In this document: positions 6,038-64,000 of the stretch, piece after piece
How positions within the stretch are numbered: the first letter of the stretch is position 1
Layout: every line of letters starts with the position of its first letter
Assembly (NCBI GenBank): GCA_017506865.1
Contig: JAFCMP010000013.1
Span: forward strand, 496,001 to 560,000
Reading direction: 5' to 3'
Source of the DNA: Tribonema minus
Lineage: Eukaryota > Sar > Xanthophyceae > Tribonematales > Tribonemataceae
Length of the DNA: 64,000 nt
Notes under the pieces: generated by a model
What the model was told of the DNA's origin: nothing
The model's input: the letters and a program-made list of their open reading frames with translations, nothing else
Databases searched by the model: none
Program-made: the position numbers and the translations under genes

Positions 6038-9000
6038 ATGGAACCTCAAACGCACTTGATCCAACGATATCATGCCACCGCGATCATGTGCACTCAGGGT
6101 GAAGACTACTCCGACAACGACGACGACAACAGCGGCGGCGGCGGCAGCGGCAGCGACATGAACGCCGCCGAGCGGCAGACGCACGTGCCGCCGCCCGCCA
6201 ACGGCGCCAGTGACGACGGCGACAGTGCCGCTGACGCCAACGCGGACGTTGACAGTTACATCCGTAACTGCCGCAAGTACCAGGTGCCGGTGGACCCGAG
6301 CGTCGTCATCAGCCTCAAGACGCGTTGGCACATCATGCAGCCGACGCGGAGTTTCTGCGAGGGCGCGATGCTGCCGCTGGCGGGGATTCTAGACACAAAT
6401 GAGCACATACGGTGAGCGCGAACTTTGCGGTTTGAAGTTGGTATAAATGTTGAAGTACATCATGCAGCCGACGCGGAGCGTCTGCGAGGGCGTCATGCTG
6501 CCACTGGCAGGGACCCTCGACACGAACGAGCACGTACGGTGGGTGCGCACTTTGCGGTTGAAGTTGGTTAGAAGTTGAAGTACATCATGCAGCCGACGCG
6601 CAGTTTCTGCGAGGGCGCTGGCAGGCATCCTCGACACAAACGAGCACGCACAGTGAGAGTGTGCTTTCTGGTTTGTTTTTGCGGTTGAAGTTGGCATGCG
6701 CCCGCTGTCATGCGCAAGTGTTGAAGTGCATGATGCAGCCGATGTCCAGGTTCTGCGAGGGCGCAATGATGCTGCACACGCAACGGGTGCCAAGCGACTT
6801 CAGCCTTGTGGTGTTGATGCTAGCCGCCATTCTTGTGTGTTACTGTTGACTCAGGAGGACAACCCGAGCTTCGCCCTGGCTCTGGGCTCTCAGACTGCAT
6901 AAGTGCCGACGGCTTGCCTGGACGTACTCAGCTGAGCACTGTGACGTGGCGCCTGCTTGCCCTGAATTTGAAGCTCATTCAGTTCCAGCGAGAGCTGCTA
7001 CCGCGCGCGTTGCGTGCCGCAGGTCGCTGCTGCTGCACGGCGCCGCCATCAAGCCCACGGCGTGCAACAGGACAGTGCTCAGTGACTTCTATCAGATTAT
7101 CTCAGGGTACGCGCGCTTTGCAAAGGCAGTCTGCCTAAACCATCGGTTTCAATCGAGCGCTGCTGCGCCGTCAGTGCTCAGCGTCTTCTTTAGATTTAAA
7201 AGTGGGAGCGCTGTGTGCAGGCAGTCCACCGACAGCATCGGTTTCAGCGGAGCGCTGCTGCGCGTGAACCGTAGCCATCAGTGCTCAGCAGTTCTTTTTA
7301 AATGCTTAAGTACATGCACTTTGCACAGGCAGTTCATGGTGGTTTAAGCAGAGCGCCGCTGCGCGTGTGACGTGCCACGCAGGTCACTGGTGTTGCACGG
7401 CGCCGGCATGCACAACCGCAAGCCCATGGCGGGCAACGGCAACAGCAACGCGCGCGTGCTGCGCACGATGCTGCGGCGCAACAAGGCGGTCAGCCTGCTC
7501 GACCTGAGCAACACGGGCCTGGACAACGACGGCGTCGCCGAGGTGTCGCAGGTGCGTACTTCTAAAGTTGAAGTCGGCGTGGCGAAATAACGGCAACAGC
7601 AACGCGCGCATGCTGCGCACGATGCTGCGGCGCAACAAGGCGGTCAGCCTGTTCGACCTGAGCAACACGGGCCTGGACAACGACGGCGTCGCCGAGGTCT
7701 CGGGTGCATACTTCCATACTTGAAGTTTGAATTTGAAGTTCAAAACTTGAAGCCAAAGTTGTGTCAACTTGAAGTAGACGTGGCTAGATTCCATCGATCG
7801 CTGCTCGGCCGGTTTGCGTTACAAGAGCAACACGGGCCTGGACAACGACGGCGGCGTCGCCGAAGTGTCGCAGGTGCGTACTTCAAGAGTTGAAGCTGGC
7901 GTCAGAGTACATAAACTGCAGGCGCAGGCAGGCACAGTCAGCGCACTCTACCTGAGCAACAAGGGCCTGGATACTGATGGTGTCACTTAAGTGTCACAGA
8001 CACATACTTCCAAACTGGAGGCTAATGAGTTGTCGAGACAGAGCGCGTACCTGTCACGTTGAAGCTGACGTGCCAGTTGAACATTGTGCTCAGCGCTCGA
8101 TGTTGGCTGCACGGGCCTGGAAAGCGACGGTGCCGTTGAGGCATGAAGAGCACTGCAGTACAGAATTTAGGATTAGAGTTAGGGTTAGGGTTACGCAGTC
8201 ATGACTCGACTGCGCTTGCAGCACAGACAAACGCCATGATGTGGTCACAGGCTGATGGCTGTTTAGTAGGGCCACAGCTGCAGAAGACGATGCGGGGGAC
8301 TGGGTCCTCCCTCACCCCTTGTCTAATACTTGCGCCAGGGCCTGCGGAATTGCCTAGAAAAGTTCACCCTGCATGCGCCCACACATTTTTTTCTTGTGTC
8401 GCGCTCTGCCCATCAGCTGCGCCTCGCAACCACCGTCGCTGTATACCATGCACGTCCTGACGGAGAGCGAGAGCCTGACATTGCTCCACCAGCCATGAGT
8501 CACAATCCGAAACCCTTGTAAGTCCACAAACTTCAACTGGTGTGCGCGCCATCCCTGATGCGCCTCAAAAAAAGCAGCATAGCTGCGCCTCACAGTGGCC
8601 AGTCAACGCGGTCGCTGCAACTGCAGATCCTGGCGGAGAGCCGGAGTCTGACATTGCTCAACCAGTGAACGCGGCGGCGACCGGTAGCACGTCATCATCG
8701 GCCCCAAAATGTGTACCCATGCAACCCCAACCGGTGTCACCCACCATCCCTGACGTGGATTATGTCATTCAAGAACTGATGAAATAGCTGCACTTCACCG
8801 TGGCTACTGTATGCTGACGCTGCGACTGCAGATGCTGGCGGAAAGCCAGGGCCTGACATGGCTCACCCACCTAACGCGCTGGTCGGTTATGCATCGCCAC
8901 CGGTCCGAAACCTTGTACTTCCGCAACTTCAACCGGTGCACGCGCCATCCCTGACGCGCACATTCTCAACTGCGCCTTCCAATGGCTACTTGCACACTGA

Positions 9001-12000
9001 TGATGCAACTGCAGATCCTGGCAGAGAGCGAGAGCCTGACGTCGCTCAACCGTTTAATGCAGTGGCCACCGATACCATGTCACCGTCAGTTCAAAGATTT
9101 GAACTTGCACAACTTTAATCGGTGTACGCGCCATCCCTAACGCGCATTATTGCAGCGAAACAAAACTCTGTACCCCACAGTCACTGTGGCTACTCCATGC
9201 AAACGCTGCAACTGCAGATCCTGGCGGAGAGCGAAAGCCTGACATCGCTCAACCTAGCGCGCAACTACTTTGGCGCGCCCGGCGCCAAGGCCCTGGAAGA
9301 CGCGCTGGGCGTCAACGAGACGCTGCAGCACCTCGACGTCAGCAGAAACGCACTTGGCTTCAGGTACACCTGGAAGCGCTGTGAATCGAAAACTTCAGCC
9401 TATGTGTTTGCCTTACTATGTCAACATTTGACTAGGGTTAGGGCTTAGTGCTGCGCTCGCACTTGGGCACGCGTACTCAGACAGCGAGACGCTGCAGCAC
9501 CTCAACGTCAGCAGAAACGCACTGGGATTCAGGTGCGGTTCAAAGCGTTGTGGGTTACAGCCTTCACCCAGTGTGCGGCGTAGTACTAGTTTGCATTTAT
9601 CTAGGGGGGACGCAGTCAACGAGACGCTGCAGCGACATCAGCAGAAACGCGCTGGGCTTCAGGTGCGGTCTTGAGAGCAATGTGCTTCGATATCTTTGCC
9701 TTGTGTCGGCGTACTATTCTTTCGTGTGTCCAGGGTTAGGGCTAGGACGGCGCTTTGATGCCAGTGCTGCGTTGGCACTTGGGTGCGCGTATGCAGACAG
9801 CGAGACGCTGCAGCACCTCGATGTCAGCAGAAACGCGCTGGGTTTCAGGTGCACGAACTTGTTGGCATGCATACATAATTGAAGTTGACTACCGGTGGGG
9901 TGCGCTCACTGGGTTACTGAAATGCTGCAATTTAGGTGTGCTTCTACGTCCCTCCTTGTCTACATCCGAGCTTTTTTTTTGCCAGTGAGCTGTGCTTGTA
10001 TTAGCGTTCTTGGATTTGAATTGTTGAAGCTGGCTGTGCTCGGCATTTCGAAGATTTGCCGTCGATTTGATTTGCTACTTGCGCCATGTCTCTATCGTTG
10101 ACGCTCCTCCTCACAAGCGACAAGGTGGCCCTAGGGTCAGGGCCCCAATGTCAGGGCTAGGCAAACTCACTCGGACCGACTGCTCTGCTTGCGGCTGTGA
10201 ACCCTAGTATTGGGGCCCTAATGTTTTAAAAGGTTAGGTAAAATCATCCCGTTGAGCGCTGCTTTGCGGCCGCTGCGTGCTGCGTTTCAGGTCCGTCAAC
10301 ACACTGCAGCAGAAGTCATCGTCATTAAACCAACTCGTCGCTAGCGCGTTTGTAAGCTATTACGCAGTTGCTGGCCATGCTTCAGCGTAATGTGACGCTG
10401 CCCTTACGCCAGTAGGGCCCTAGTGCTAGTGCACGGGAAACTCGCCCTGTTGAGCACTGCTCTGCAGCCGCTGTGCTGTGTGGCAAGTCCATCAACGCGC
10501 TGCAGCAGAAGTGCGCGCACCGGCGCTGTGACCCTAGTGTTAGGGTTAGCTAAACTCATCCTGTTGAGCACTGCTCTGCGGCCGCTGCGCGGCAGTGTTG
10601 CAGGTCCATCAATGCGCTGCGACAGAAGTGCTCGCACTGGCGCTGTGACCCTAGTGTTAGGGCCCTAGTGCTAGGTTTAGGTGAACTCACCGCATTGAGC
10701 GCTGGTTTCAGCTGATGCGTGCGGCGTTTCAGGTCCATCAACACGCTGCAGCAGAAGTGCGCGCAACGGCGCTGTGACCCTAGTGTTAGGGCCCTGGTGT
10801 TAGGATTAGGCGAACTCACCCTGTTGAGCGCTGCTTTGTGGCTGCTGCGTGCTGTGTCAGGTCCATCAACGCGCTGCAGCAGAAGTGTTTGCACCGGCGC
10901 TGCGGCTGCGCCATCACCGTGCACGCCGACGGCAACTACGTGTTTGAAGAGGTGCGCAAAATTGTTTGTTCACCATGGGTTAGGCTTGTGTGTTATTATA
11001 TATATTATGGCTCGTGTGTTATTATTTTAGGGTTGGGGTACGATAGAGATAGGATTAGCAAGAACGTCAGGGCCTAGGTCAAGGTCAGGGGTGGCCGTGC
11101 ACGCCAACTGCAACGACTTGCATTTTGAAAACGAGGTGCGCAAAAAGATTTTTGATGAAAAAATTGTTTGCCTGGGTCAGGGGCGGAGTCAGGGTTGCTC
11201 GTTGGGTGCCCTGCGCACAAATGACAACCACGCGTTTGATCCTATTGTGATGATGCTCAGCAGCCGCGCTGTGATGATGCTCAGCGAATTGGGCAAACTA
11301 CCTACGTTGGAATGAATGCCCGGTCCGCATGCAGCGCGCTTCAAAGCCAGGTCTCTGCATCGCAGCTGTTACAGCATGGAGGTCACTGCGCACTGCGCTG
11401 GCTGCTCCGCCTTTGGCCTTCAAAGAGTGGCAATACGCCTACTCAAATATTTGTTGAGAGCTCTGTGACTTCCATGAGCTGTGCAGCAGCCACTGTCTGA
11501 ATAGCCACTGCTTGTTGCGGCCAAACAAACACGAGGGCAGGGAAGTCCCACTGTGCAGCCTCTGCGCAAGCAGTTATGTACACAAGTGCTCACCTCTCTG
11601 GGCCGCTGTTGCTGATTTCAATCATGACCTTGCCCTTCTAACACAACCCTCACCTACCCATACACCAGGTGCTCCTGCCCCCGCTACCAGCAAGTTCAAT
11701 CCTAGTGGCTTTCATTGACCCTCACCTTACGCTGCACTCTCTTGGGTACTCATCACCTGTCGCATGCGGTGCTCCTCTCCCGCCGCCGCCAACGCTAACC
11801 CTACTAACTTCCCTTAACCCTAGCCTTACCTACCCTGCATCTCGCAGGTAATCACTCTACTCAATCACCTCAACCCTAACCTCCACCGCAACATCTCGCA
11901 TGTGCTCAACAGCCTGTCGCACGCGCTGGGCTTCATCATGTCCAGTACCCTCAATTCTGACCCAACCCTAGTTTATCCACCCTCACCTAGCCCTACACCA

Positions 12001-15000
12001 GGTGCTCCTCTCCCGCCGCCATCATCTCTAACCCTACTCACTCACCTCAACCCTAACCTCCACCGCAATATCTCGCAGGTGCTCAACAGTCTGTCACATG
12101 CGCTGCTCCTCTCCCGCTGCCGCCAACTCTAACCCTACTAACTTCCCTCAACCCTAACTCTAACCTCACCCGCATCATCTCGCAGGTGCTCAACAGCCTG
12201 TCGCACGCGCTGGGCTTCATCATGTCCATCATCGGGACCATTCTGCTCATGTCGGAAGCGTCGGGGCCGGAGCGCTCTCCGGTGCAGTTCTGGGCATGCG
12301 CCGTCTTCAGCACCAGCCTCATGATCCTGTACCTCAGCAGCACGGTGAGAGAGAGTGCACTCATGGTCAGCAGTGCTCACCGATGCGGTATTGCAATGCG
12401 TTGCTGCGCTGCTGCCAGCGTGGCGGCTGTGCGGTGCACGGCGCACCATTGTCATTACCTGCATGCCCTACAGATGGACGCTCTGGGTCTGCCTTTCAAG
12501 CCCTTGCGTGCGTTGCGACTGCTCTGCTAGCGCGCGTTGAGAAGCATCACACCAACTGTCACGTTGTCCACTGTCAAGTGGTCGCAGCGTCTTCGCTTTA
12601 ACCTGCCATCACGCGCTGCGACCGCCCTGCCAGCGATCGGCGAGGAGTCAAACTATCAAGTCGGCGCAGTCCCTTGGTCCACCCTTCGATTTGTCGTCCC
12701 TCATTGCTGCCAGCACCTTTTCGGTCATCCCTTGCAGGGCACACGGACGCACGGAGAACGCGCAGCACCCAACCGTGCGCTCTGTGTGTCCTTTTTAAGT
12801 GTTTTTGGGGTTGAGGCCCCTGGAGTGTCGCTTGAACCAGGAGTTTTGGAACCAGCAGCAGCACCTCCAGCGCCGCAGCCGGACCGCGACTTACACCGAT
12901 ACACCCCTCTTTTACCCCCCCTTATCCCCCTCCCCCCCCCACTCGCAGCTTTTCCACATATTCTTCATGATACCGCACGTGCTGGACCACAACTTACATC
13001 AACACCCCCCTCGTTCGCCCTCCCTTACCCCCCCCCCCCCCCCCTTAACCCCCGTCCCCCACTCGCAGTTGTTCCACTCCTTCTTCATGATACCGCACGT
13101 GCCAGACGACGACTTACATCACTACCCCCCTTGCTCTGGCCTCCCTACCCCCCCCCCCCCCCCTCCCCCCTCTTTGTTCCATTCCTTCTTCATGATACCT
13201 CACGCGCCAGACCACAACATCAACACACACCCTGTTCTGCCCTTCCCTAACCTCCCCCTCCCCCCTCCTTCCTGCAGCTGTTCCACTCCTTCTTCGTAGT
13301 ACCGCACGTGGCCTACATCCTCCAGATTGCGGACCACGTGGCCATCTACCTGCTCATCGCCGGCAGTTACACGCCGTTTCTCATGATAGGGCTGCACGGC
13401 TCAACGATCGGCGGCGTGGTGGTGGTCGTGGAGTGGGTGGCAGCGCTCGTCGGCAGCATCTTCAGCATCAGCTGCGACTTGAAGTCCAGGTAACTTCTAT
13501 GCTGTACTTCCTGTTGTCTTCTGTAACTTCTACTGGATTACTTTTGAAGTTGTTGTGTTGTTATGACTGGTGTGGGCTCTGCTGAGGTGGGTCGCCGCGC
13601 TCGTCGGCAGCATCTTCAGCATCAGCTGCAACTGGAAGCTCAGGTATGTGTGCACTTCAACAAGCACGGCTTGAATTCACCGAGTGCTATTATTGCTGGT
13701 GTTGGCGCTCGAGAAGTAAGTCAGTGCCCTAGCCGGCGGCATCTTGGGCTGTGCATGAGCTCCAACGAACAAGACTTGTAATTCATGAATTGTTGCTGTT
13801 AGTGCTGTTGGCACTCGAGAAGCGAGTCGCCGCCCTGGTCTGCAGCATCTTTCAACATGAACACCATGGTTGTGGAGCTGACACTGTGCCTGGACATGAT
13901 TTTTTCTTTTGCACTGACGACCCACCCACCTTTCATCATGCCACTAGTTTTCCGCACCTGCTGCCCATTTAATCTCGTGTGCAGCTCTATCATGGTGATT
14001 GAGGTGCCACTGTACCTCAACCTGGGCTCAGCCACTTCTTCCTGAGCTGAGCGCCATATATGCATCACGCCGTTTGTGTTTTTCCGCACCTTCTGCCCAT
14101 GTAATCTCGCGTGCAGCTCCACCATGGTCGTGGAGCTGACACTGTAACTGGGCACTGCACCCATAATGCCGTTTTTACTTTTCCGCGCCTGCTGCCCACT
14201 TAATCTCGCGACCATGGTTGTGGAGCTCACCGTGTATTTGGGCATAATGTCCGATTTGGTTTTTGCACTGACCACCCACCAGCCTATCGCCATGCCATTG
14301 TTTTTCCCGCACCTGCTGTGCATTATATCTTGTGTGCAGCTCCACGATAGTGGTTGAGCTGACACTGTACCTGGGCACTGCACCTTTCATTATACCATTA
14401 CTGTGTCGCACCTGCTCTGCATTTCATCTCGTGTGCGCTCTCATGCCATCACTTTATTACTTTGCCGCACCTGCTGTGCACCTCATCTCGTGTGCAGCTC
14501 CACGATGGTGGTCGAGCTGACGCTGTACCTGGGCTCAGCAACTCCTTCCTGAGCTGAGCGCCCGAATTTTTCATCGCGCCGTTTTATTTCCTTCCGCACC
14601 TTCAGCCCATTTCATGGACATGAATCAAATCGTAGAGTTCTAGGTGACGAGGTGTGGTCTGCCGCACATACCTTTCACCAATCACCGTGGTCGCCGCTGC
14701 TTTAATCTCGTGTGCAGCTCCACGATGGTGGTCGAGCTGACTCTGTACCTGGGCATGGGGCTGGCAGTGCTCACCATGTGGACGGAAGTGGCGGCGGCAT
14801 TCGTGCCGCAGTGCCTGTACCTGCTTGTGGGCGGCGGCGCCGCATATGTAGTTGGCGTCGTCTTCTTTGTCATTGGCGAGACGGTGAGCAATCTGACCGC
14901 TGCTCAAGTACAGGCGTTGAAGGACACTTCAATATGCCTTGTTTAATTAATACCTTTTGGTGCACACGACCTGCGATTCCAAGCATTCGTGCCGCAGTGC

Positions 15001-15820
15001 CTGTACTTCTTTGTGGGCGGCGGAGCCACATACGTCGTCTTTTTCGTCGTTGGTGAGACGGCGAGAGGCTGAGCATGGCATTATGCGCACCCCTAACCCT
15101 AGCCCTGACATGACCCTACACCCTGAACCCAATGCGGAGTGCATTCATAGTTACATGCATACAGACATACAAGCAGCTGGTTGAACTTGTGTCAAGTACG
15201 TCGTTGGCGTCGTCTTCTTTGTCATTGGCGAGACGGTGAGAGGCTGAGCATGAACGATGACATGAACTGCGATCCATGTCCTCATCTTGGCAACGAGTAA
15301 TTCCCGCATGCGCTTGCAGCATACACTTCTCTAACTCTTTTCTGTGCGCCGTGCTTGACGCTTTGTTAGTGCAACACCGTAAATGCAAGCGTCATGTGCG
15401 GTTGCAACTGCTTTCTTCCGTCGTGTTTTGCATGCCTGCAGAACGGCATTGGGTTGCCAGTTGATATTGTAGCAGTTTGTCTGCCGTTTGCACAGCTCGC
15501 CAAGTGTGAGATCACATGCAACGTCGCCCCCTCCGCGCACGCGTTCACATGCGCACAAGTTGCGACTTGACAGCACCACACTCTTTGACGCTCCGCAATG
15601 CAGCAACGCTTAACAGTACATTTTTCAAACTGAAGCTCAAGTGCTCGCCTGCCCTCTCTTCCCCTCCCCCTTTCCCCCCCCCCCCCAGATCCCCATCTAC
15701 CACGTCTTCTGGCACCTGTTTGTGATTGTGGCCAGCTGCATGCACTGGTTTGCCATCTACCTGTACCTGGCCGGCGCACCTCTCGCTGCTGTGTGTGAGG
15801 CTGCGCACTTGGCAAAGTGA
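6038..15820 (+). CDS. Leucine-rich repeat protein fused to a hemolysin-III/PAQR seven-helix domain
   Basis: Eight exons join in phase: 6038-6411, 7383-7551, 9218-9363, 10861-10951, 12186-12344, 13278-13489, 14718-14883 and 15689-15820, giving 482 residues. Residues 1 to about 75 are acidic and low-complexity. About 122-230 are RI/NLRC3-like LRRs ([51 protein letters not shown]). From 261 the PAQR core begins: [10 protein letters not shown], then LSSTLFHSFF, then [16 protein letters not shown], and finally [15 protein letters not shown]. His316, His444 and His448 match the three zinc-ligand histidines of PAQR/adiponectin receptors, and Asp332 the conserved acidic residue. The protein should be an integral membrane protein with a soluble LRR head; the ligand is unknown. 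The start could also be Met17. An alternative in-phase piece at 7023-7106 may be an extra LRR exon or a decayed copy. Confidence 0.82.
6455..6790 (+). repeat. Decaying copies of the 3' end of LRR-PAQR exon 1
   Basis: Three diverged direct copies of the last 70 or so bases of exon 1 lie just downstream of its donor: about 6462-6540, 6585-6655 and 6722-6790. Each repeats the segment around ATCATGCAGCCGACGCG. The first two end in a donor-like site (CGTACGGTGGGTGCG and GCACAGTGAGAG). The third has lost it. Confidence 0.8.
7023..7106 (+). CDS. Optional LRR exon or degenerate exon copy in intron 1 of the LRR-PAQR gene
   Basis: This piece has acceptor GCCGCAG, an open frame reading [20 protein letters not shown] across the junction, and a usable donor GTACGC. 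It would add 28 residues in phase between exon 1 and the 7383 exon. It shares its first 25 or so bases with the 7383 exon, and other introns here carry decayed copies of the following exon's 5' edge in the same position. It may therefore be a ghost that happens to stay open. Confidence 0.4.
7585..7995 (+). repeat. Decaying copies of the 3' end of the 7383-7551 LRR exon
   Basis: Direct copies at about 7591-7700, 7829-7876 and 7950-7990 repeat the exon end that encodes the [15 protein letters not shown] segment. The first is over 100 bp and very similar to the exon, the second keeps about 45 bp with a GTGCGTAC donor, and the third is strongly eroded. Similarity falls with distance from the exon. 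Confidence 0.8.
8450..9060 (+). repeat. Decaying copies of the 5' end of the 9218 LRR exon
   Basis: At least four copies of the acceptor region and first codons of the exon precede it: about 8456-8492, 8615-8665, 8825-8870 and 9005-9050. Each contains variants of CTGCAACTGCAG followed by CTGGCGGAGAGC and GAGCCTGAC. The reading frame closes or drifts in all of them, so only the last, at 9218, supplies a full LRR exon. Confidence 0.8.
9470..9860 (+). repeat. Decaying copies of the 3' end of the 9218-9363 LRR exon
   Basis: Copies at about 9478-9535, 9617-9665 and 9797-9853 repeat GAGACGCTGCAGCACCTC and the AGCAGAAACGC segment, each ending at a GGxTTCAG|GTGC-type donor. They sit in the intron directly after the exon, separated by unrelated sequence. 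Confidence 0.8.
10280..10780 (+). repeat. Decaying copies of the 5' end of the 10861 exon
   Basis: Four copies of the acceptor plus first 40 or so bases of the exon lie upstream, at about 10291-10330, 10485-10530, 10602-10645 and 10729-10775. Each contains a variant of CATCAACRCGCTGCAGCAGAAG, and most are followed by GACCCTAGTGTTAGGG-like units. Only the copy at 10861 runs on into a donor in frame. Confidence 0.8.
12940..13220 (+). repeat. Decaying copies of the 5' end of PAQR exon 13278
   Basis: Three copies of the region around TTCCACTCCTTCTTCATGAT lie at about 12951-12985, 13072-13105 and 13176-13215, spaced by poly-C tracts. The true exon has GTAGTACCGCACGTG where the copies have ATGATACCGCACGTG. 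Confidence 0.8.
13580..15250 (+). repeat. Ghost copies flanking PAQR exons 13278-13489 and 14718-14883
   Basis: Three kinds are mixed here. Copies of the end of the 13278 exon lie at about 13586-13645, 13707-13775 and 13815-13855. Copies of the start of the 14718 exon, around TCCACCATGGTCGTGGAGCTGA, lie at about 13858-13895, 14112-14150, 14211-14250, 14336-14375 and 14495-14545. Copies of the end of the 14718 exon lie at about 14985-15066 and 15190-15246. The interval at 14608-14700 is instead a copy of a dispersed repeat. Confidence 0.78.
14618..14702 (+). repeat. Dispersed repeat, copy B
   Basis: This copy has diverged blocks GAATCAAATCGTAGAG, AGGTGACGAGGTGTGG and CACCGTGGTCGCCGCTGCT. It lies in an intron of the LRR-PAQR gene, in sense orientation, immediately before the acceptor of exon 14718. 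Confidence 0.65.
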
Positions 15821-20375: not shown

Positions 20376-20402
20376 TGCGTTCTTTTCTAAAGTGCAAAAC
20401 AA

Positions 20403-21023
20403 ACAACTTCAAAGTTTTGAACCTTAAAATCAGCTTGAAGTTGTCTTGTGCGCATGAAACGAAACACAACGCCGATGTAACCGATGTAACCGCCAAGTAG
20501 CGGACATTGCCGAGAACACCCTGATACGTGCTATGAAAGTGGTGGGTCTGAACTCCCCCCGTACCAAATGATTGTGACAGAAACAGGAACCGGTGCTATC
20601 CTAACAGTCTTCCCACATCTCATTGCACGTCCTTGCCTTTTGTTGTGAATCATGAAGCATTGTCTTTGTTTACAAGTGCACCTACATCGCTGACCTGCAT
20701 CACACGCAGAGGCCAGAGGCCAAACGGAGAGTGGGTTGGGGCATGCCGTCCATACTGATCGTGTGGCATGTCTCACCATTAAAATCAAGAAAAAAATGGC
20801 CGCAATCACACTGCATGCTCTTTGAATGGCACCAACAGAGCGCCAGGTTGAGATCAAAAAAGCTGAATTTGACATGTAAGCGCAGCGCCAGGTTGATATC
20901 AAAATCAAAACGCTGATTTTGTCATGTAAGCGGACACCCGCCCTCCCCCTCCACACACTCATGCACACAAATCGTGCTGGCTAGAACACCATCATCACAT
21001 CTCGTTTAACACATGACAGCAGC

Positions 21024-21054
<31 letters not shown>

Positions 21055-21419
21055 ACAACAGTGCCAGATGTATGAAAAAAAGTGCTTCAAGCATGATAGT
21101 AAGTCTTGATGCATTATAGTCTGAATTGGACGCGTGACCCGCTGAAAGCAGGACGCAGTGGAGCAGAGGACGTAGCACACCACAGTCACGTCAACTCTGA
21201 CTGCTGTCGCGCTTGGCTGCGCCGGGTGCTTTCCGCTGTCCTAGCCGGCAGCGCATCAAGCGCACTGACGCGTCTACAGCACATGCAACTGCCGCACCGC
21301 ACCACTGCAATAGCCCCCTGGGGCAGCTGCCACCCTGTCTTGCCCGCAACATAACACGCACGGAGTCATGTTCTCGACGTTGCATCAGACGGCTGTCACG
21401 CCACGTTATATGCACAGAG
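20403..21419. other. Intergenic stretch with a CAG microsatellite
   Basis: This lies between the ankyrin-like pseudogene's 5' end and the stop codon of moaC. It contains a near-perfect (CAG)n/(CTG)n tract at about 21015-21060 and a short direct duplication at about 20838-20925 (GCGCCAGGTTGAxATCAAAA). No coding potential was supported. Confidence 0.5.
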
Positions 21420-22767: not shown

Positions 22768-23075
22768 TGCGCCTCGTTTTGGCAGCACGTAAGCAACTTG
22801 TGGGGGCACACGCGACCAGATTGAAAAAAGCGGCTAATCGGGAAGTTGAACTTTGCAAACTTCAGCTGCAGTTTGTAGCGTCGTTTTGCACTGCGACACA
22901 CACCTCGCAGCTAGATCGGCTGTTGATGCAAGTGTGCAGCAGCGGAACAGAGCTGCAGCTGCACCAGAGGAAGCCGCGCGTTTCCCTGGTGTCTGGCAGC
23001 ACGAGTTCAAGTTGCAGAACGGAACGCGAAGGCGAAGCGGAGTCATCGACGGCTGGTTGCCTCGGCATAGTCACC
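22768..23075. promoter_or_regulatory. Divergent intergenic region between moaC and the ankyrin-repeat gene
   Basis: The two predicted start codons, 22767 on the minus strand and 23076 on the plus strand, are 308 bp apart. Both promoters and 5' UTRs must lie here, or upstream exons must exist. No TATA box was recognised. The plus-strand frame stays open upstream to 22767, so the ankyrin-gene start could also lie further left and overlap moaC. Confidence 0.55.
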
Positions 23076-26000
23076 ATGCTGAAGCGAGGCCTCCGCAGGC
23101 GGCGGACTCAACGCTGCCGTAAGATTAAAGGTCATGCGCAGGACGAGAGCAGCGTCTGCAGCAGCGGGAGCGCGACCGAGGTGGAACTGCTGCTTGACGA
23201 AGAGCCTATCCCTATACAGCCTATTCAGGCAGCGGCCAGGATGGACGTGGGCCTCTGGGAGGCTGTCTTCTCGTTCATTGGGCCCGGTCACTTTCTGCAG
23301 CTGGCTGTATCCAAGGAGTGGAGAACAGCATATAGTGCTGGCACTGGCAGCACCAGCACCGCCGTCGAGTTTTTCGCAGGTATCATCAAGTGATTTGTTT
23401 GCAGTAACCTGGTCAATTTCCATTGCAGTGCTGCTGATTTTCTTCTAGCATTTGTGCATATTTTGTAGATTTTCTACGCTGTGGCATGCAGCAATTGTAG
23501 TCTGCACGGCTCTGACGCACATCTTGTCATGGCCCGAGCGCATATCCTGACATACCCAACAAAGTCATTCACTGCACAACACTCTGTGCTAAAGTGCGTG
23601 ACGTTGCCCTGCACCGCGACACAGCGTGATACCAATGTGCCATGTCGCCTTCAACTGCCTGATCCCCCCCCCCACACACACACTCAGACGACCTGGTGCA
23701 GCTGCGGTGGGCTCTCGACGCGGGCTGCCCGCGCAACGGCTGGGTCTGCGCCGCCGTCGCGCGCTGCGGCCGCCTGCGCCTCCTCCAGTTCGCGCGCGAC
23801 AGCGGCTGCCGCTGGGACGAGAAGACGTGCGCGGCGGCGGCCGCGGGCGGCCATCTCGCCGTACTCAGGTGGGGGCGCGCGCTGCAACGAGCTCAGAGCG
23901 GGCAGTACATGTCTTTGCATGCCTCATAAATTTCAAAGCATGCTGATGATGGCGTTCGCGGCGTTGAAGGGGGACGCAGCAGCAGCAGCAGCAGCAGCGG
24001 GCGGGCATCTCGCCGTGCTCAGGTGCGGGGCGGGCGCTAAACCGCCAGAGTGGGCCGTACGTGGGCGCCTCAGGCACTTCGACGCGTGTCCATTGCTGGC
24101 GCCCGCGCGTTGAGCGGTTGCTGAAATGAGCTCACAACGGGCAGTACATGTATGCCTCGCGTACTTCAAAGTATGCTGATGTTGGCGTCCGCAGTGTTGA
24201 GGGGGGACGCAGCAGCAGCAGCAGCAGAAAGCGGGCATCTCGCCGTGCTGAGGCGGGAGCAGGCGCTGGACTTCTGCCGCCATGGGGTCGGCATATTTGG
24301 CATTGCAACTGCTGACGCGAGACGCACTGGTGATGTTGATCTCAGATGCATTGCTGGTGCGGTGCCTTTACACGGCAGGCGGCCGCTCTGCTGTGCTGAG
24401 GAAGGAACAGGCGCTGAGTTATTCGAGCTCGTGACAGTAGCAGGAGTCATTTGCGAGTGTCAAAGTGTGCTCATGCTGGTAACGAAACCACTCAGTCGAA
24501 ATCTGTGATCCGATGCGACGGCATGCAGGTGGCGACCTCGCTGCGCTAAGGTAGGATCAGACTCTGAACTGACTTGGGCTTGTGGCAGGCAGCATTCGTA
24601 TGCCATAGAGTATGCATACGCTGGCACTGAAAGTGTGAGCATGATATCCGTTTCTGCGGCGGGTGGTGCAGTGCTCAGGCTGGGCAGGCGCAGCAGAAAG
24701 TCGTGGTGAGCAGTGATGACAAATGAAACTGTTAGGGATCAATTGCCACTAGACTTCCTGAACGCTCAATCTTTCAATTGGCAACTGCTTGTCACAATCA
24801 TGGGCCGGCGAGTCAGTGCAGCGCCATGCAACTCGGTGGAATCCTCCCTTGGCACTGACGACGCGACCGTCGCAGCACTGTCGGGAGCAAGCGCCGACGC
24901 CTGACCTCGACCGTAACCTCACAGGCTCGCGAGCGCAGAGACATTTCCGCTGCGCCTGGTAGGACGCGAGACGGGCAAACGCGCTACGTGCCAAACACGG
25001 TACTCGCTGTCCACGCACCTAGCAATAATGATAAAACTTCAAGTATAGTGGAAACGAATCAAAAGATCGTAGAGCTCCAGATGACAAGGGGTGGTGGTCA
25101 GCCGCCAGTGCCTTCCACCAATAACTGCTTAGTAATCCATTGAGAGCTGATGCTTTGCGTCGTCTCGCGCCGCAGGTGCGCGGGCGAGCAGGACTGCCCA
25201 TGGCCGAAACACGATAATCGCTGTGCACGCACCTTGCTGAAACCATAATGAAAGTACTTCAATGTGTCATCTATTGACAACCAATGCACTCCGTGGTATC
25301 GCGCCGCAGGTGGGCGCACGAGCAGGGCTGCCTGTGGAGCGGGTGGACGTGCGAGGCGGCGGCGGAGGGGGGGCATCTTCAAGTCTTGAAGTTCGCACGC
25401 GAGCGCGGCTGCCTCTGGGACGAGCGCACCTGCATCGGCGCGGCGCGCGGCGGCCATCTTCCAGTGTTGAAGTTTGCCTTCGAGGCCGGCTGCCCGATCT
25501 CCGACAGGTAGGGTTGCACGAAAAAGATGTTTGGGCCACGCGAATACGGCGTGTTTGGGGCGTATTTGGCAACCAGGAATACGTCTCAAGCAAACCTCAA
25601 CATGACGACATGCCGCGCAAAGGGCGTATCTGTGGGGCATGCGGGGAGTCTGCGCGGTTCTGAGCATACAGCAGTCCACCACAAAAGCGGCATCATGCAA
25701 ACTCAGACATTAACTTCAGTATTCGCTTCCTGTGTGCAACTCTAACCTTACGACAGGGCGTGCTCTGCGGCAGCCGCCGGCGGGCACCTCGAGGTGCTGC
25801 AGTGGGCGCGCCACCGCGGCTGCCCGTTCTCGCCGCGCACCGCCGCCGCCGCCGCCGCCGGCGGCCACCTCGCAATGCTGCGCTGGGCGTGCGGCGACGG
25901 GTGCCCCGTGGACGCGGACGCGTGCGCAAACGCCGCCGCGCGCGGCCACCTCGCAGTGCTGCGCTGGCTGCGCGAGGAGGCGCGCGCGCCGTGGGACGCG

Positions 26001-31188: not shown

Positions 31189-34100
31189 TCAGTCTCTGTC
31201 GATAATGTCCCTTGAGTTGTCCATGGCATAGATGAGCTTCTCGAGTAGGGTCGCTTGGTTTGAGTAGGGTGGGAGATGCAGCTGAGGGGGGCGATTGGGG
31301 GGGGGGGGGGGCAAACATTGGGTCAACCACCGCCAGGCATACAAGAAGACAGTACGACTGCATTGCATGCAGGCAATACGTGCACACTGCAGGCCTCCAG
31401 CACAATTGTCAAGCGCTGGCGCCAAGGCCCCACGCACTGCAATTGCCTTGAAATCCACCACAATGCCTCAAGTAAGCATCAGGCACTGCAACTGTGCGCC
31501 CAGGTGTTGTCGATACAAGGCATCTCGGCACCTGTACGGGACAGTACGACACGGTACCGAGGTGTGCTGTATCGACAACACCTGCGCGCACACGAGTCCA
31601 AACGTCACCATGCGACGTGGCCGCAATTGTGAGGCTAGCTCACCGTGATGCGTGCACGTGCGCGCGAATGGCAGCTCCCGATTGCGGAGGCCGCAACATC
31701 AACCCACGATGCCTCCTCAAGTAAACGTCCAGCACCGCAAGTCAAAAGGTTGCCATGACACACATGGCCGCGATCGTGAGGCTAGCTCACCGTATGCGTG
31801 CATGTGCGCGCGAACGGCAGGTCCCGATTGACCTGCTCCTCGCTCGCAAACGACGACGCGAAGCCCCCCTGTTGGCGGCGGCTGACTTCGAGGGGGGGGG
31901 TCAGGCCCCCCAGACCCCCCGGGGGCAGCCGCGGGCACCCCAGCACAAAGAGCAGGAAGCGCCTCTTGGTGGGGAGGTCCATGTCGCTGAGGCAGTGCAG
32001 CAGCGCTCGGAAGGGCTGCGCGCGGCGGAAGTGAGAGCAGAGCCACGTTGAAGTGATTGGATGCACGCGAGCGTATGCGCTTCGAAGCGTACAGACAGCA
32101 GAAAGGTTATCTTTTGTCCGGTGGCGAGATCAATGTCATTGAGGCAGTGCAGCAGTGCTCGGAAGGGCTGCGTGTGCGGAAGTGAGCGCAGAGCCACACT
32201 GAAGTGATTTGGTTCACAAAAATCCATGCACTTGGAAGCGTACAGACAGCAGGGAGCTCCTGTTGATTCGGTGGTGAGGTCCAGGTCGCTTAGGCAGTGC
32301 AGCAGCAATGCAGCAACGCTCGGATGGGCTGCGCACACGAAAGTGAGTGCAGAGTGTCACGCTGATGTGAGTCGGCGCACGCACCTCCAGAGATGCAGAA
32401 GGCGCAGCAGTCACGTGAGGATTGCATCAGGACATCAATGTAACCCACCAAGCAGTGGGCAGGGAAAAAGTATGGAGACAGCAGCGAGCTCCTTTAGTTC
32501 GGCGGCAAGACTGAAGTCATTTGAGGCTGTGCAGTAGCAGTGCAGCAGCGCTCGGAATGGCTGCGCATGCGGGCAGCGGCATGCAGAGCCAAGCAGACGC
32601 GGTTGGGTGCGCGCACAGCTATGGTCACACGCACCTCACGGTGGGGAGATCCATTCCGCTGACGCAGCCCAGCTTGCGAGGCCTGAGCCGGGAAGACATG
32701 ATTGTGTGCCCTCATGCAATGGGCGCCGGGCGATACCACCGCCTCCAAGTACTCACTATCGCTTCCTTTGTTGAAGGTCAGAGTAAATATTTCAAGTCTG
32801 TGACGTGAAAGCGTCAACAAATCGCTATGCACCTGTCCGTACACATCAACCCAGGGTAAAGCTGATACCTACATACCTCGCTGTTGCGCGTGTACCCCGC
32901 GCCAGGCGAAACGACAGCCTCAAGATACTCCAACGGCCAGTCCAGCGGCTCCTGACCGCACAGCTGATCTCGCAGTTCAGCTGCGCTGAACGCCCTCAGC
33001 TTGCGGGCCTGTACAGCATCGAAGAGCATACAGCAGCAGCACTGAGCAAAGGGGGCTTGAGGTGCATGGAGTGTTGTGTTCTACAGTACCAGACAGCTGA
33101 TCTCGTAGCTGCGCTGCGCTGAACGCCCGCAGCTTGCGAGCCTGCACAGTGCAGGGTCGAGGAGCGCGAAACAGCAGCAGTGAGCAAGTAGCTGAGAGGA
33201 ATGCAAGATGCACAGAACATTTAATGTTGATACTGTTCGTATGGCTGAAGCTGAACGCGAAGCATTAGCGGTTAGAAGGGGGGGCCGGAGGGGCAAATTG
33301 CTGCAGCACTGCTCAACGTTCTTCCGTCGCGCTTCTTCTGGGGTGCTTTCATTATTGTAGCAGGCATGCCAGACAAACAACAATATCATGCCTCGAGATC
33401 TTAATGGATCGTCCTTGAAAGGAAGCTACCCCCCAAGTGAATATGTGTGTACCAGAAGTGGAGGGCTCGCATTGATTCACAAACCAGTAAGGCTGAAAAA
33501 GTTGGGACTTGGCATCGTGAGGCCTGCTCCATTACCATGCGTTTTTAACAAGGGCCGCAGCACTGGCCATGCTTCGCCAAGCCCCTAGACCTGTTGCAGC
33601 TGTTAGACTGTTGGCGGGGAGCGAGATTGCTGAGCACTGCAGCACCACTCAGCGCTCTCCCGTGTGCTTTCGGCATTGCTTGAGCAAAGATACTTGACAA
33701 TGAACCAGCCAACATACTGATTTTTGTTATTTTTTGTTCAAGTCATACACATACCATAGGTGGAGCGGGCTTTCGCCCTCTGTCCAAAATCCCTCACTGC
33801 TGGCCTCAAACAAAACCTTTACACTTTGATGTATACATATGCTGCAAAGTACTTCTTTCTCACTCACGGGGAAGGCCTCCGCGCAGCCCGCAACAAACGC
33901 CTGTGCCTGCGGCACGACGCCATACCCTAGCCACTTAAGCAGCAGTTCGCCGACGAAGTGGTGAACGTTGGCAGGCGTCACGGCGGGTGCCTCGCCCGGC
34001 CCTGCAGCAGCAGCAGCAGCAGCAGCGCGCAATGGCGGCAGCGCCGGTGCGGCGCGAGCAAGGCCCATTGTGATGTTACATTACCGTATGTGATAGATGA

Positions 34101-35880: not shown

Positions 35881-38800
35881 CTGTTTTGGGGGGGGGGGGG
35901 AGGGGGAAGGGCGTTACACCAGGAATCCAGTGCAGGAACTAGGGGGGCAAACGTGGGGACATACATATTTATAGTCAGTCCACTTTTGCACAGCGTAGCC
36001 AGCTATGGAATCTGCACGTAGTTGCTCATATCAATGCAATCATCAGGTGCGTAACGCGCGTTGCATGAATTGTAGAAGTACCACTTTTACTGCATGTTCT
36101 GCACTGAGGTAGTGGCGTGGTGAAACGTGCAATGCGGTGCAGGCCAAGGCCTTCAGTTACAAGTGTGCACGACTCTTACTCTCTAAATCATGTCGGACAC
36201 ACATGCCAAGTAGGGGTTCAATTCACAGAAACGTATGAGGGCCCCTCACGACTTCAAGAGTGACAACCCTGGAATCTGAACTCGAGCACCGACGCCAGCG
36301 ACGGCGGCGTGGTGTACGCGAGCATACCAAAAACTTCTAGTATAAATATTAATGTACATACTTTGAAGTATGCAGGCGTGTGGACATAAACTTCAACTCT
36401 TACGGCATGAACTTGAGAGCGCGCTGCGCGTGGCGCACCTGGAACCTGAACTCGAGCACCGATGCGAGTGACGTCGGCGTGGTGTACGCTAGCATGATCT
36501 GCTGAGCGTGCTCCAGGAGGTGGTCGCGCGACACCTGTACGACGTCACGCCTCAGCAGCCTGCCGCCGCTGAGCGATGATGAGGAGAGGCAGGGGGTATG
36601 TAGGGTATGGTGAGGTATGACACGTCAGGAAGTGGTCGCGCGACACCTGTACGATGTCAAGCCTCAGTAGCCTGCCGCCGCTGAGCGATGATGCAGACAA
36701 GGGGTATGTAGGATATGGTAAGGTGCTGATATGCATCGACGTCACGCCTCAGCAGCCTGCAGCCGCTGAGCGATGATGCAGACAAGGGGTATGTATGGCA
36801 TGGTAAGGTATTGATATGCATCGGCGTCATGCCTCAGCAGCCTGCCGCCGATGAGCGATGATGCGGAGAGACAGGGGGGTATGCATAGTATGGTAAGATA
36901 TGCTAGCGATGTCACGCCTCAGCAGCCTGCCACCGCTGTGCAATGCTGTGGAGAAGCAAAGTAAGGTATTATACGTCACGCCTCCGCAGCCTGCCACTGC
37001 TGTGCAATGCTGTGGAGAAGGAATGGGGTATGTATGGCATGGTATCACAACGAAAGCGCTGTAGTGACGTCATGTTTGGGCTCCTCGTTTCATGCAGCAG
37101 CTCTGTCTGTCGGCGCGCCAAGTGCACCCAAACCCTAACTCTAATTCAGATCTATGTTGCCCATGTTAACTGCTGGCCATCTGCCTACCCCAAAGGTCAC
37201 AAGAAGACTTTTGCTGAGAGCAATGCTGCAGGGACTGGTAACTACTCCATGATGCAACAACATCATAAGGCTTTGAAGGACTGATGCTCATCTGCATTTT
37301 GTAATTAACATTTGTAACATTAACATTGTATGACGCAAACATCACAACACGCACTCCCATCACGGGCTTGCAACCGCCTGAATTGCTTTTAAAGCTGTCA
37401 AACTTCAAACTGGTCTACTTCACAGTGCATTACTGCGAGGCCCGCGACGGAAAACGAGCACCACACGTATCGGCCCATGGTAGTTCTTGAACAGCACTTA
37501 TAAGCCGCATGTATGCGATACTCGTAACCGAATTGATGCCTACCTTGGCTGTCCGCCTGAAGCCCCTGCGGCGGCGGCCGCAGCCTGCGTCTGCAGCCAC
37601 GCGATGCTGCGGTTGACGCCGAACGAGCACGACTGGAAGAAGCGTCGGCGCAGGCCCAGTGGCAGCAGAAACCTGAGCATCAGCGAGGCAGGCCGAAAAT
37701 TGAGTGGGCGACATGAGTCGAGAGGCCAATTTTGAGTCAAGAGGCCGATCTGAGTTAACGAGTATGGCGAGAAGAAGCGCCGGCGCAGGCCCAGTGGCAG
37801 CAGAAACCTGAGCATCAGCGAGTGGACCGAGAGTCGAGTCGGCGGCGTGAGTCAAGAGGCCGGTCTGAGTCAATGAGTACGGAGTGAACAAGCGACGGCG
37901 CAGGCCCAGCTGCAGTAGAAACCTGCGCATCAGCAAGCGGACTGCGTATCGAATCGGCGACACGAGTCAGGAGGCCGATAAATCATGAACACAACAGTAC
38001 ATCAGGCTCTGCAGTATGTGACATAGTCCTGCAATGTGCACTCGCCCGTGGTGAGCGTACGCTATCGCCTCAAGCCATGGCAGCAGCGCCAGTATTTTAA
38101 GCATGCCCTTACCTCAAGGTTGTAACAAAATAGGCAAACTTGAATACGTGAAGCAGGCATAACACTCACCCGTAGCCGCCGACCACAATGGCCTTGAGCC
38201 ACGGCGGCAGCGGGATATTCTAAAAAGATTCCTAACCTCAAGGTTTACAATAGATGAACTTCAACACTGACATGCAAGATTCAACACTGGAAGCGCTTAC
38301 CCGTAGCCTCCGCAAACGATGGCCTCGAGCCACGGCGGCAGCGCGATACTTTGAAAGATTCCTGACCTCAAGGTTCACCATGGGTGAACTTCAACACTGA
38401 CAGGCAAACTTCAACACTGGAAGCGCTCACCCGTAGCCGCCGCACACGATGGCCTCGAGCCACGGCGGCAGCGCACGTGTTCTAGAAAGGTGGTCCTAAC
38501 TGCTAACTTTAAGGTCTGAGAAAGGCAAACTTCAATACTTGAAGAAGCTATGAGCACGCACCCGTAGCCACCGCACACAATGGCCTCGAGCCACGGCGGC
38601 AGTGCGTTGGCGGCGACTGCAAGCTCATCCGCCATGGCCTGCGACGCGACGCCGGCGAGCGGCTCATTGACCCACGACTCAGACTCGTCCGCGTCGGCGC
38701 CCGCAAACAAGTCGGGCTGCAGACACACGCGGGAGAGCACGGTATGAGCGTCTGCATGCGTCAAGATGCACATGTGTCAATGCGTATACTGCAGATTGTA

Positions 38801-59800: not shown

Positions 59801-62800
59801 TACAGGTCATCGTTGTAGGCGAGGGACCCTTCAGGGCGCGAGCCTTTGTAAGTCATGGCGCGCGCAAGTCTCCGCACCACTGATGCACCTGCGTGATGCC
59901 ACGCTTGCTGATTTTTGCGAACACGAATACTTTTGCGGAATGTTACGCATCGCCACCAATCAGCGCTGGCGCATTGTTCCTCAAAGCAGCTCGGCACGAC
60001 CGTTTACCAATCAGCGTGCAGGGGTTTAGTTGCTCGTTGCATCGGGCAACACCAGGAAGCTGCGAGCTTATTCTGGCGCTGGCTCTTCAGCTCACGAGGT
60101 GTTGCTGCACAGGCGGCGCTGACCGCATGCAGCGTTTTGGCACTTGGCATGTATCGCATTGCAGTCTCAAGCCTGCGGCCACGCTTCGCGGCCTGCAGAG
60201 CTCTTGAAGGCTCATGAGCGCTCACGAAGTCTCTATTTTTATTGTCTACTCCGTTACGCGCAACTTCACTTCCTGAGGCGGTAACCCTTCTAAGGGTTAT
60301 GATTATGACTACTTAGGGTTAGAGCCAGAAACTGATCGCCAGCGTGATGGTGTTGGTGTGCTGAGCGTGGCAGGACAGCTTCATGGCAATGCAGATGTAA
60401 TCCCGCAGCATGCGCATAACATGATCTCGATTAACAGAAACATGCGGTGATGCACATGTTTCAGATTCAAACAAATATTGAGGTGATGGGTCTCTGACTT
60501 GCTTTAAGCGCAACTCACAAAAGAGGCTGTCTGTTTCCGGGTCGCTCGCCCCCCAGTCCTTCAGGAGGGGGGTGCTTTCTTGTACGACACAATACATCAT
60601 CAAGCATGGAGGGCGGGCCACACTTTCCCTAACCCTATCTCCTAAGCCTAAGCCTAACCCTAACTCTGCCACCATCGCCGCAAATGTATATTAAAGTATA
60701 TGTGCAGCAGTGCAGTGTGAGGGTGCTAGCTTCCAGTCCGTGTCGGGAGCTCGCACTTCAAGGCTTACTTCTCAGCATACTTCAAGTGAAATACCTGTAC
60801 AACACAATCTCACTTCTTCTTGTTTTGAGGCAATGTAAGGCGCGATGGTGTGAGAGTTGTGACTTCCAGTTCGTCTCCGGGGCTCATACTTCAAGTCTAG
60901 TGCTTAGCGCGTACTTCAAGTTAAGTACCTGTACAGCACGACCATAGTGTACAGTGTGATGCTTTGAAGCACATGTGCAGAGGGGTACTAGCTTCCAGTC
61001 TGTCTCAGAGGCTCGCACTTCAAGTCTAACTTCTTGGCGCAAGTGAACTACCTTGTACAGCGCATGCTCACTTCCACTTGTTTTTAGGCCATGTACAGCG
61101 AGACGGCGTGAGGGTTGTGACTTCCAGTGCCTGTCGAGGGTTGGCACTGCAACTCAACATTTCTTAGTGAGGGCACTAGCATCCAGTCCGTCTCAAAGGC
61201 TTGTACTTCTACTTCAAGTCCAACTTCTGGCGTACTTCAAGTTGATTACCTGTACAGCACGCCTCGGCGCTGCAGCGGCTCAGCGTAGACCGCGCCGCAC
61301 TCGCGCACCAGCACCTGCGGCATAGAGTCAGAGTCAGAGTCACACAGTGTGTTTGTTCCGTCAGACTTTGAAATGGTGTGGGATATATTGGTAACATGTA
61401 ATATTGGTAAACCAATTTTATTTGACAATGCGGCAGTTCGTGGATGCAGCTCAGCAGCGCAGCATCAGCAGCAACTAGTGGTGATGACGGTTTGCTAATG
61501 ACTAACTCACTGCTGCTCCACTTCTGCTGTGACGACACGCAAGAGGTGACTGTTGACGAGGAGGGGGTGCCGACTAGGGGGTCTCTGCCCGTTTCAATTC
61601 CGCTGTGACACGGTAAATATCACCGTCAGTGATAATGGCATGCCGACAGGGGACGCTTCTGCTGCGACACGCTAGAGTTTACCGTGCAGCGCTCCGAGTC
61701 ACCAAGCGCTAGGGTTAGGGTTAGGGTTAGGGTTAGACTGTTTTTGCTCGACACGCTTTTGAACCTGCTAGCTGAGCGGTGCCACGTCTACTCCATTGCG
61801 AAGAACATGTCTCGCGCCCCAAGCGAGAAATAACAATGCATATGTGATGGCACCGAGAGAGGCCAGCCTAACCCTAACCCTAACCCCCCTAATGCATATG
61901 TGATGTCTACAAAGCCAAAGTTGCGGCGCAGCAACTGCTTTCGGCGGCCCTAACGAGTCCGTTTATGCTTTCCGCAAGCCTCGTGTATCTTGCGCAGCAT
62001 GTTGAGCTGGGTCTCGTTGGCGTCCGCGGCCTGCATGTGTTGACACTCACGCGGCGGAGCAGCGTTGCGGATTCGCAACACTTGATTTCACGCGTTGGCG
62101 TAGATATGTACGAGCTCATGCGATGAACTGAAGACCTGGCAACAGCACCCCCATCCCCAGCATGGGGAGTCAGCGCAATGGTCAATGGCTCAGGCTTAGA
62201 AGCGATGCGCGTTTAAAATATAGATACTTTGAAGTACTGTGTATACATGTATACATACACATACACTCTTGTACTTCTATGTTTATATTTACGCGGTGTA
62301 TATTGCGCGCGCCTGTAGCATGTCCAGCGCGCGTGCGGTGAGGCCGTCTTCCGACTACCATCAACGCATTTTACTCCGGTGCCAGGTATGTCACAATGTC
62401 ACAGCGTGAGCAATCCATGCGCTTGCAGCACCGGCCCTGGCAAATACTCTTTATATGGAAACGATTCAAAAGATCGTAAGCTCCAGGTGACAAGGTGTGG
62501 TCAGCCGCCAGTGCTTCACATGTCACATATATATTTTGAACCATTTCCGTATCCTTCTCTCTCTATATATATATATATGAAGGATATTCATATTTATAAT
62601 ACACGACGAATACTGCGCGCACCTGCAGCGTGTCGAGCGCGCGCGCAATGAGGCCGTCGTCCGACGCGCCCGCGCCGCCGCCACCCGACAGCAGCGCCTC
62701 CATGAATGACACAGCGGCATCTACGCAGGGGCCTTCGCACAAGACGACGCGCACGACGGCGGCGTCGGCTCCGCTGCCGTCGCCGCCTGCAAGGGAGCCA

Positions 62801-64000: not shown

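Follow-up and report, generated by a model that had tools for sequence, protein, structure and literature searches.

Introns of Tribonema minus, a yellow-green alga (Xanthophyceae, Ochrophyta), frequently carry tandem copies of the edge of the adjoining exon, usually together with its splice site, and this pattern, as far as it can be read from sequence, suggests that introns in this alga lengthen as their own borders are copied locally again and again. To our knowledge, how introns lengthen without mobile elements is poorly documented. The arrays were analysed in a window of 64,000 nucleotides (C13:496001-560000) and at further loci of the 158.18 Mb genome, which is assembled in 554 contigs; the analysis covers one genome, with transcript support for one gene, predicted exons in most of the pooled set and a limited range of simulations.

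Exon-edge arrays in the window

The best-supported gene of the window is an LRR-PAQR (HlyIII) gene on the plus strand (6038-15820), assembled by hand, which encodes 482 amino acids in eight exons (6038-6411, 7383-7551, 9218-9363, 10861-10951, 12186-12344, 13278-13489, 14718-14883 and 15689-15820). All joins are GT-AG and the frame is open through to the stop codon; matches to PF03006 in the window support the assignment, and EukProt transcript P0001 matches the protein with 99% identity over 77% of the query, crossing all seven exon joins. At 12 of the 14 intron edges of this gene, one to six tandem copies of the exon edge were found, mostly including the splice site. On the donor side, arrays follow exon 1 (6330-6775; three copies with a period of ~127 bp and 82 nt of exon), exon 2 (7435-8141; four copies, the nearest 97% identical in its exon part), exon 3 (9311-9854; three copies), exon 4 (10917-11145; one copy), exon 6 (13433-13851; two copies by local alignment, a similar copy lying inside the retained-intron transcript P0003) and exon 7 (14797-15252; two copies). 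Acceptor arrays precede exon 2 (7003-7437; one copy near 7020), exon 3 (8435-9262; four copies with an exon depth of 37-45 nt), exon 4 (10125-10902; four copies, with a depth of 42 nt in three of the four pairs), exon 5 (11646-12228; two copies by local alignment and more pairs by BLAST), exon 6 (12878-13310; three copies) and exon 7 (13862-14757; six copies). The start-codon edge of exon 1, a coding edge and not a splice junction, is also copied upstream of the gene (5884-6137, plus strand).

Two of the acceptor copies of exon 6 encode FFMIPHV and the third FFMIPHA; the exon in the window reads FFVVPHV, and transcript P0001 reads FFMIPHV, like the two copies. Judging from this exon, copies can preserve an older state of the exon that they flank. 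By eye, several further features were seen in introns of the window: short TTAGGG- or CCCTAG-like interstitial stretches in PAQR introns, lying partly within array units (8160-8190, 10200-10245 and 10530-10550); long C tracts immediately 5' of two true acceptors (15668-15687, plus strand; 35881-35900, minus strand) and within one acceptor copy (13029-13046, plus strand); and a TTGAAGTT-like motif that recurs soon after several true and copied donors (6412-6700, 7552-7900 and, on the minus strand, 38280-38560, as well as other intron starts).

Part of a HECT E3 gene lies on the minus strand (31791-38716), with predicted exons at 38562-38716, 37544-37672, 36439-36559, 35665-35880, 34752-35160, 33868-34001 and 31791-32015, the spliced translation of which matches the Pfam HECT family (E = 1.5e-13); by eye, the model misses one more exon near 32.9 kb. 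Donor arrays, all on the minus strand, were found for exons 38562-38716 (38038-38606; depth 41-45 nt, nearest period 131 bp), 36439-36559 (36268-36495) and 31791-32015 (31595-31830), and acceptor arrays for exons 37544-37672 (37622-37979), 36439-36559 (36514-37044) and 31791-32015 (31945-32673). A self-complementary stretch of ~100 bp (31493-31592) lies in the same gene region. The sequence-only reading had drawn its pattern from three genes; the PAQR and HECT arrays bear it out, and the third example, an ankyrin gene on the plus strand (~25.7-27.3 kb), is confounded by coding ankyrin repeats, which, read by eye, account for much of its self-similarity.

Other parts of the window are poor in arrays, with no local direct pair at E ≤ 1e-6 by self-BLAST in 1-5.8 kb and 15.3-23.7 kb. 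The minus-strand gene at 450-2979 likewise has 0 local direct pairs at this threshold, and one array (639-804) at a laxer cut-off; its N-terminus resembles a bipartite plastid presequence of the ASAF type. A dispersed short repeat of 53-89 bp (78-92% identity, both orientations), which does not belong to the local arrays, occurs at 1720-1812, 14622-14701, 25044-25125 and 62452-62514. Elsewhere in the genome, two short stretches resembling rbcL (C334:714136-714324 and C112:516888-517037), both interrupted by a stop codon, are perhaps plastid DNA in the nucleus.

Occurrence of the arrays across genes

Self-BLAST of the window at E ≤ 1e-6 gave 130 direct and 4 inverted pairs, the direct ones nearly all within 1 kb, and in the shuffled-sequence control that had been proposed with the sequence-only reading, for which the window was shuffled block-wise 20 times with dinucleotides preserved, direct pairs within 1 kb numbered 0. 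In ten random 8-kb loci, 3 inverted pairs were found beside 68 direct ones spaced within 1 kb, and nine of the ten had at least one direct pair; genes were predicted in eight of these loci, and the two that are gene-free by prediction (L040 and L044) contain two arrays each per 8 kb.

Each exon edge (50 nt of exon plus 15 nt of intron) was then compared with its own intron and with 200 dinucleotide shuffles per edge, in the PAQR gene and in 11 kinesin genes, the motor exons of which had been found genome-wide by Pfam with repeats disregarded. HMM-adjacent kinesin exons were linked by frame and splice consensus into 21 introns, 17 of high and four of medium confidence; one of the latter (L056, 4649-7912) is wrong, containing a hidden exon with the true donor at 4738, and was kept in the counts of 28 introns. 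Over these 28 introns of 12 genes, 14 donor and 17 acceptor edges scored, with at least one edge in 21 introns. For PAQR, 6/7 donor and 6/7 acceptor edges lay above all 200 shuffles, and for the kinesins 8/21 and 11/21 did so. Matching the edges against introns from the other genes gave 1372 comparisons, 17 of which exceeded the shuffle maximum. The claim that donor copies lie downstream of the exon and acceptor copies upstream held well: for 14 exons, scores on the expected side were 39-111 in 20 of 28 cases and the highest of the 28 scores on the wrong side was 26, the shuffle maxima of 21-35 referring to the expected side only; one opposite-side pair was found over 226 edges.

Cores defined by HMM were used at 30 HECT loci and one PAQR-like locus, some of them neighbouring exons or identical contigs, and direct pairs touched nine core edges in 8 of these 31 loci, always outward, although at L025 by a single base. 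One direct pair of 32 nt lay within a core, and inverted pairs touched the HECT cores L004 and L014.

For a wider sample, a gene finder was trained with 18 kb of coding sequence, defined for the most part by Pfam and including the kinesin, HECT and PAQR exons; its fit to these genes is partly circular because their exons trained it. With a stricter intron penalty, it recovered PAQR exons 2-8 and the joins of locus L050 exactly, both being in the training set. Its prediction for the C520 kinesin is identical to the annotated T. minus protein P0277 over the last 294 of 364 residues, and all five random-locus genes searched in Pfam, two of them in part, were matched (ammonium transporter, TRM1, CPSF73, Sel1 and SET). 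The model for the minus strand of the window chains several genes together, and the exons that it places at 23.7-30.3 kb probably lie antisense to the ankyrin gene. Kinesins L053 and L055, which had 0 copies in the edge test of 28 introns, have no multi-exon model and are hence absent from the pooled counts.

In 18 gene models pooled with the minus strand of the window, copies were found at 47 of the 112 donor edges and 40 of the 114 acceptor edges (87/226). Copies of exon edges are thus not special to the window, occurring in the kinesin genes and the pooled models as well as in PAQR. Among 101 introns of 150-2500 bp, 82 arrays touch an exon and 32 are interior (58 and 20 when the 20 introns of the window minus strand are left out), and the edge arrays make up 33% of the intron bases. 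The statement that nearly every intron contains such copies is true of PAQR and a few other genes, but too strong for the sample, since 39 of the 101 introns have no edge array. Introns with an edge array have a median length of 1165 bp (n = 62) and those without one 593 bp (n = 39), a difference that is no proof of growth because long introns offer arrays more room.

With the window minus strand counted as one unit, the load varies strongly between genes (chi-square 63.8, 18 df, P = 5e-7; 0 of 5000 permutations), from 12/14 edges with copies in PAQR, 7/8 in L050 and 6/8 in the ammonium transporter to 0/13 in TRM1, 0/8 in the Sel1 protein and 0/6 in kinesin L058. The two edges of one exon are correlated (odds 3.4, P = 0.006) and the two edges of one intron more weakly (odds 1.6, P = 0.30), which hints at a cause at the level of the exon or gene rather than the intron. 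In 2 of 18 models, copies also precede the edge at which the first predicted exon starts (the copies at 5884-6137 and in L041), and in 2 of 18 they occur at the end edge. These prove little, as predicted gene ends are unreliable; the start-edge copies may mean that splice junctions are perhaps not strictly required.

Structure, decay and splicing of the copies

The median spacing between the exon edge and the nearest copy is close to 170 bp, with quartiles of 131-206 and 124-201, and the mean greatest exon depth is 57 nt for donors and 47 nt for acceptors. A set of 79 copies at 30 edges, 19 of which have two or more, was aligned; the 29 donor-edge copies begin 28-699 nt from the donor, and none of the 29 adjoins the acceptor. 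The exon-side breakpoint agrees within 3 nt in 76 of 161 comparisons within an edge, as against 9.4% between edges. Copies of one edge have 139 derived bases in common, about four times the 35 expected if each had been copied separately from the present exon (112 pairs, which are non-independent). Part of the changes common to the copies of PAQR exon 6 is a change in the exon itself.

These common breakpoints and changes fit one founding duplication per edge with subsequent in-register amplification better than an independent series, and most extra copies look like amplified descendants of one founder. The sequence-only reading had seen similarity falling with distance, as expected of successive duplications of different age. 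A weak trend of this kind exists (67 pairs for, 42 against, 4 ties; the nearest copy beats the farthest in 13 arrays and loses in 6), but, given the common breakpoints, the common derived bases and the weakness of the gradient itself, successive independent duplications are not supported in the form proposed. A strict age ladder, with the nearest copy the youngest, was rejected on the weak gradient and the many changes in common.

Differences between exon and copy fall at the three codon positions in 130/1135, 89/1125 and 198/1124 cases (11.5, 7.9 and 17.6%), and a twofold excess of third- over second-position differences is what a neutral copy beside a mainly synonymously changing exon predicts. 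The description of the copies as having broken frames applies to some of them only: exon bases are missing inside the aligned exon part in 8 of 79 copies, insertions and unaligned parts being uncounted. The retention of cryptic splice sites was confirmed, with an intact dinucleotide in ~80% of aligned copies (GT in 21 of 26 donor and AG in 36 of 44 acceptor copies; 3 and 6 more, respectively, are unaligned). Observed retention is near the 0.77 expected from 87.7% identity, so that, measured against this neutral expectation, there is no sign of selection removing or keeping decoy splice sites. The copies, splice sites included, decay as neutral DNA does.

Whether copies are ever spliced, a question raised with the original reading, can be answered in part from the transcripts of PAQR. 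Transcript P0001 joins true exons only and skips every copy. Isoform P0003 continues beyond the exon 6 donor and terminates within the intron, in sequence with a copy-like stretch, thereby entering one copy by intron retention. This stretch is closest to the first donor copy of exon 6 (52% over 23 residues, E = 0.007), the other copies in this intron being less similar, and the resemblance indicates that this array is probably also present in the organism from which the transcript comes, orthology of the two copies being likely rather than proven.

Origin of the arrays and comparison with known systems

The arrays are probably best explained by local tandem duplication at exon edges, with neutral decay, in-register turnover and lengthening of the intron. 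Tandem duplications of roughly 125-205 bp would arise locally in the DNA of T. minus; where one spans an exon-intron junction, as the pattern indicates, the outer copy would stay functional and the inner copy, with the exon edge and usually the splice site, would be left in the intron, freed from coding constraint and open to neutral decay. Once two copies are present, homology would let the array expand or shrink in register, by slippage or unequal exchange, up to nine copies, as the common breakpoints and changes suggest, and introns would lengthen inward from their edges; about one-third of the sampled intron DNA is still recognisable as edge-anchored arrays. The exon copy, held constant by selection, may serve as a permanent template that sustains its array, contractions into the exon being purged, and in simulation the template and the purging explain part, not all, of the excess at edges over the intron interior. 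The copies would have no function that we could see, being skipped by the transcript of the one gene for which this is shown. Sidedness would need no special process, because a duplicated junction should be tolerated only if the outer copy remains the functional one. Of the original proposal that duplication of junctions makes introns grow, local tandem duplication spanning the junctions is supported by the direct, local and edge-anchored copies and growth would follow from it, but the repeated independent events are not supported as proposed. Against this explanation as a whole, uniform duplication leaves the edge preference unexplained, some copies may in truth be old but converted by the exon, the strong differences between genes are unaccounted for, and inverted pairs touch two HECT cores (L004 and L014).

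How far the edge preference goes beyond uniform duplication was examined by neutral simulations in which duplication was uniform, exons were protected and deletions had a mean size of 20, 130 or 400 bp. The observed edge share is 0.72 (82/114 arrays), and 13 of the 32 interior arrays lie at most 40 nt from a predicted edge. The 28 curated introns hold 38 arrays, of which 28 touch an exon, six are interior and four overlap an edge copy without touching the exon; the four are in neither count, and the share is 0.82 without them and 0.74 if they are taken as interior. Two of the six interior arrays fall on mis-set or missed predicted exon edges in L056. Pure detection bias was rejected as the cause of the excess, since 26.6 of the 28 edge arrays would still be detectable if the exon copy had decayed like its copies. 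Simulated mean shares were 0.29-0.54 in base settings and 0.35-0.67 when rates were raised or copying was homology-driven and introns were shorter; the 101 introns were matched in 54 further sets, with shares of 0.24-0.59 (means 0.30-0.55). Homology-driven turnover in matched introns, in five settings, gave set values of 0.30-0.70 with a best mean of 0.65, and an average of 15-44 edge arrays per set as against 82 observed; it was rejected as the full cause, and the uniform model failed in every version to reproduce both the observed share and the number of edge arrays. The clustering of exon depth, considered as a footprint of a special process, stood out clearly when set against a uniform draw (20 and 0 of 5000) and was then mostly matched by simulation. 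For exon depth itself, simulated means are 54-70 nt, the donor depth of 57 nt lying within this range and the acceptor depth of 47 nt below it. A preference for exon edges is likely, though modest, and its cause may be an effect of the junction, the exon or the template.

In a stronger form of the preferred explanation, which we entertain only tentatively, tandem duplication would have true hotspots at junctions or exons, arising for instance from stress at splice sites, either co-transcriptional or in the chromatin. The 82 edge against 32 interior arrays (13 of the latter close to a predicted edge), a share above each of the 54 length-matched uniform sets, and the 28 against six arrays of the curated introns, free of a detection effect, speak for it. 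The copied start-codon edge (5884-6137) and the arrays in loci L040 and L044, with no predicted genes, fit it poorly, exon depth is not clearly special beside the simulations, some settings of which come near the observed share (mean 0.67, one set 0.70), and a junction preference is indistinguishable from an exon preference because exon-internal duplications are purged. If hotspots exist, which seems to us possible rather than likely, junctions would perhaps be seeded by transcription or splicing, introns would grow from both edges, in each gene at its own speed, into layered fossils of the exons beside them, and the spliceosome would have to keep choosing the outermost of several near-identical sites. 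That duplication is instead plainly uniform, the edges seeming special through exon conservation and purged deletions or contractions into exons, is unlikely as a full account. Its means in simulation, 0.30-0.55 where lengths were matched and as high as 0.67 in other settings, imply that most of the pattern needs no special process, yet the observed share exceeds every simulated mean (binomial P = 5e-9 at 0.45, 0.005 at 0.60 and 0.07 at 0.65). That the copies serve as functional alternative exons, or as decoys kept by selection, is very improbable: this reading could draw on the splice dinucleotides kept in ~80% of aligned copies and on the copy that P0003 includes by intron retention, but this retention is near the neutral expectation, second-position differences reach 7.9%, the pooled copies cover only part of the exon from one edge, and P0001 uses none of them. 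Insertion of introner-like or other mobile elements beside exons has next to no probability, for the copies match their own exon edge and rarely other genes (the 17 of 1372 comparisons above), the repeats are local, and no supporting evidence was found in the loci examined.

With local duplication at exon edges as the preferred reading, a source of intron DNA is directly readable in many genes, so that the growth of introns could be counted and given dates. The arrays also amount to natural experiments in splice-site choice, because an intron offers several near-identical sites of which the outermost is used, as the transcript shows for PAQR. Copies may mislead gene prediction; our exon finder took copies for exons until the intron penalty was raised. 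Among the matches listed, a named T. minus protein exists for the array-poor C520 kinesin and none for the array-rich PAQR, L056 and L050. Arrays may spoil gene annotation, and search length limits and the extent of the matches listed could also explain the absent names. T. minus is reported to be transformable (PMC7139823), which would make experimental tests possible.

No description of exon-edge arrays was found in the open-access literature among the matches listed. Introner elements, in which intron sequence spreads within a genome, differ in that hardly any sequence is common between genes in the Tribonema sample; similar introns at many unrelated loci were not seen among the 28 introns of 12 genes, with 17/1372 cross-gene comparisons above the shuffle maximum. 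In intron gain by tandem duplication, a local duplication in a gene is reported to supply intron sequence in Drosophila (PMC2891723) and in a potato RdRp gene, the duplicated segment of the latter including existing intron-exon structure (PMC4974935). Local in-gene duplication yields intron sequence in both systems, but these cases reportedly concern a new intron in single genes (PMC4974935, PMC2891723), whereas in Tribonema existing introns hold silent copies at 87/226 edges. Tandem exon duplication with mutually exclusive exons also reportedly repeats exon sequence within a gene (PMC9013439, PMC6071210); Tribonema copies differ in taking one exon edge only, mostly 20-90 nt, with one splice site, and in decaying. 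Coding duplicates with both splice sites were not found in the pooled set: the pairs reach part of the exon from one edge, under a counting rule that excludes whole-exon copies, and the codon positions decay neutrally. For the LRR genes of Tetrahymena, an 'intron length cycle' with expansion of whole exon-intron units is reported (PMC6564038), which is alike in the repeated duplication of an exon-intron unit and in intron length changing with age; there, whole 90-bp coding exons of one family are reportedly involved (PMC6564038), whereas in Tribonema partial, non-coding edge copies occur in unrelated genes. With minisatellites, as generally known, the arrays have in common head-to-tail units, copy number changing in register and common unit boundaries, and more than two units with such boundaries are indeed seen (at least two copies at 19 of 30 edges, depth within 3 nt in 76/161 comparisons). 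They differ from minisatellites in that each Tribonema array has its own unit and counts among its members the conserved exon edge on which it is anchored.
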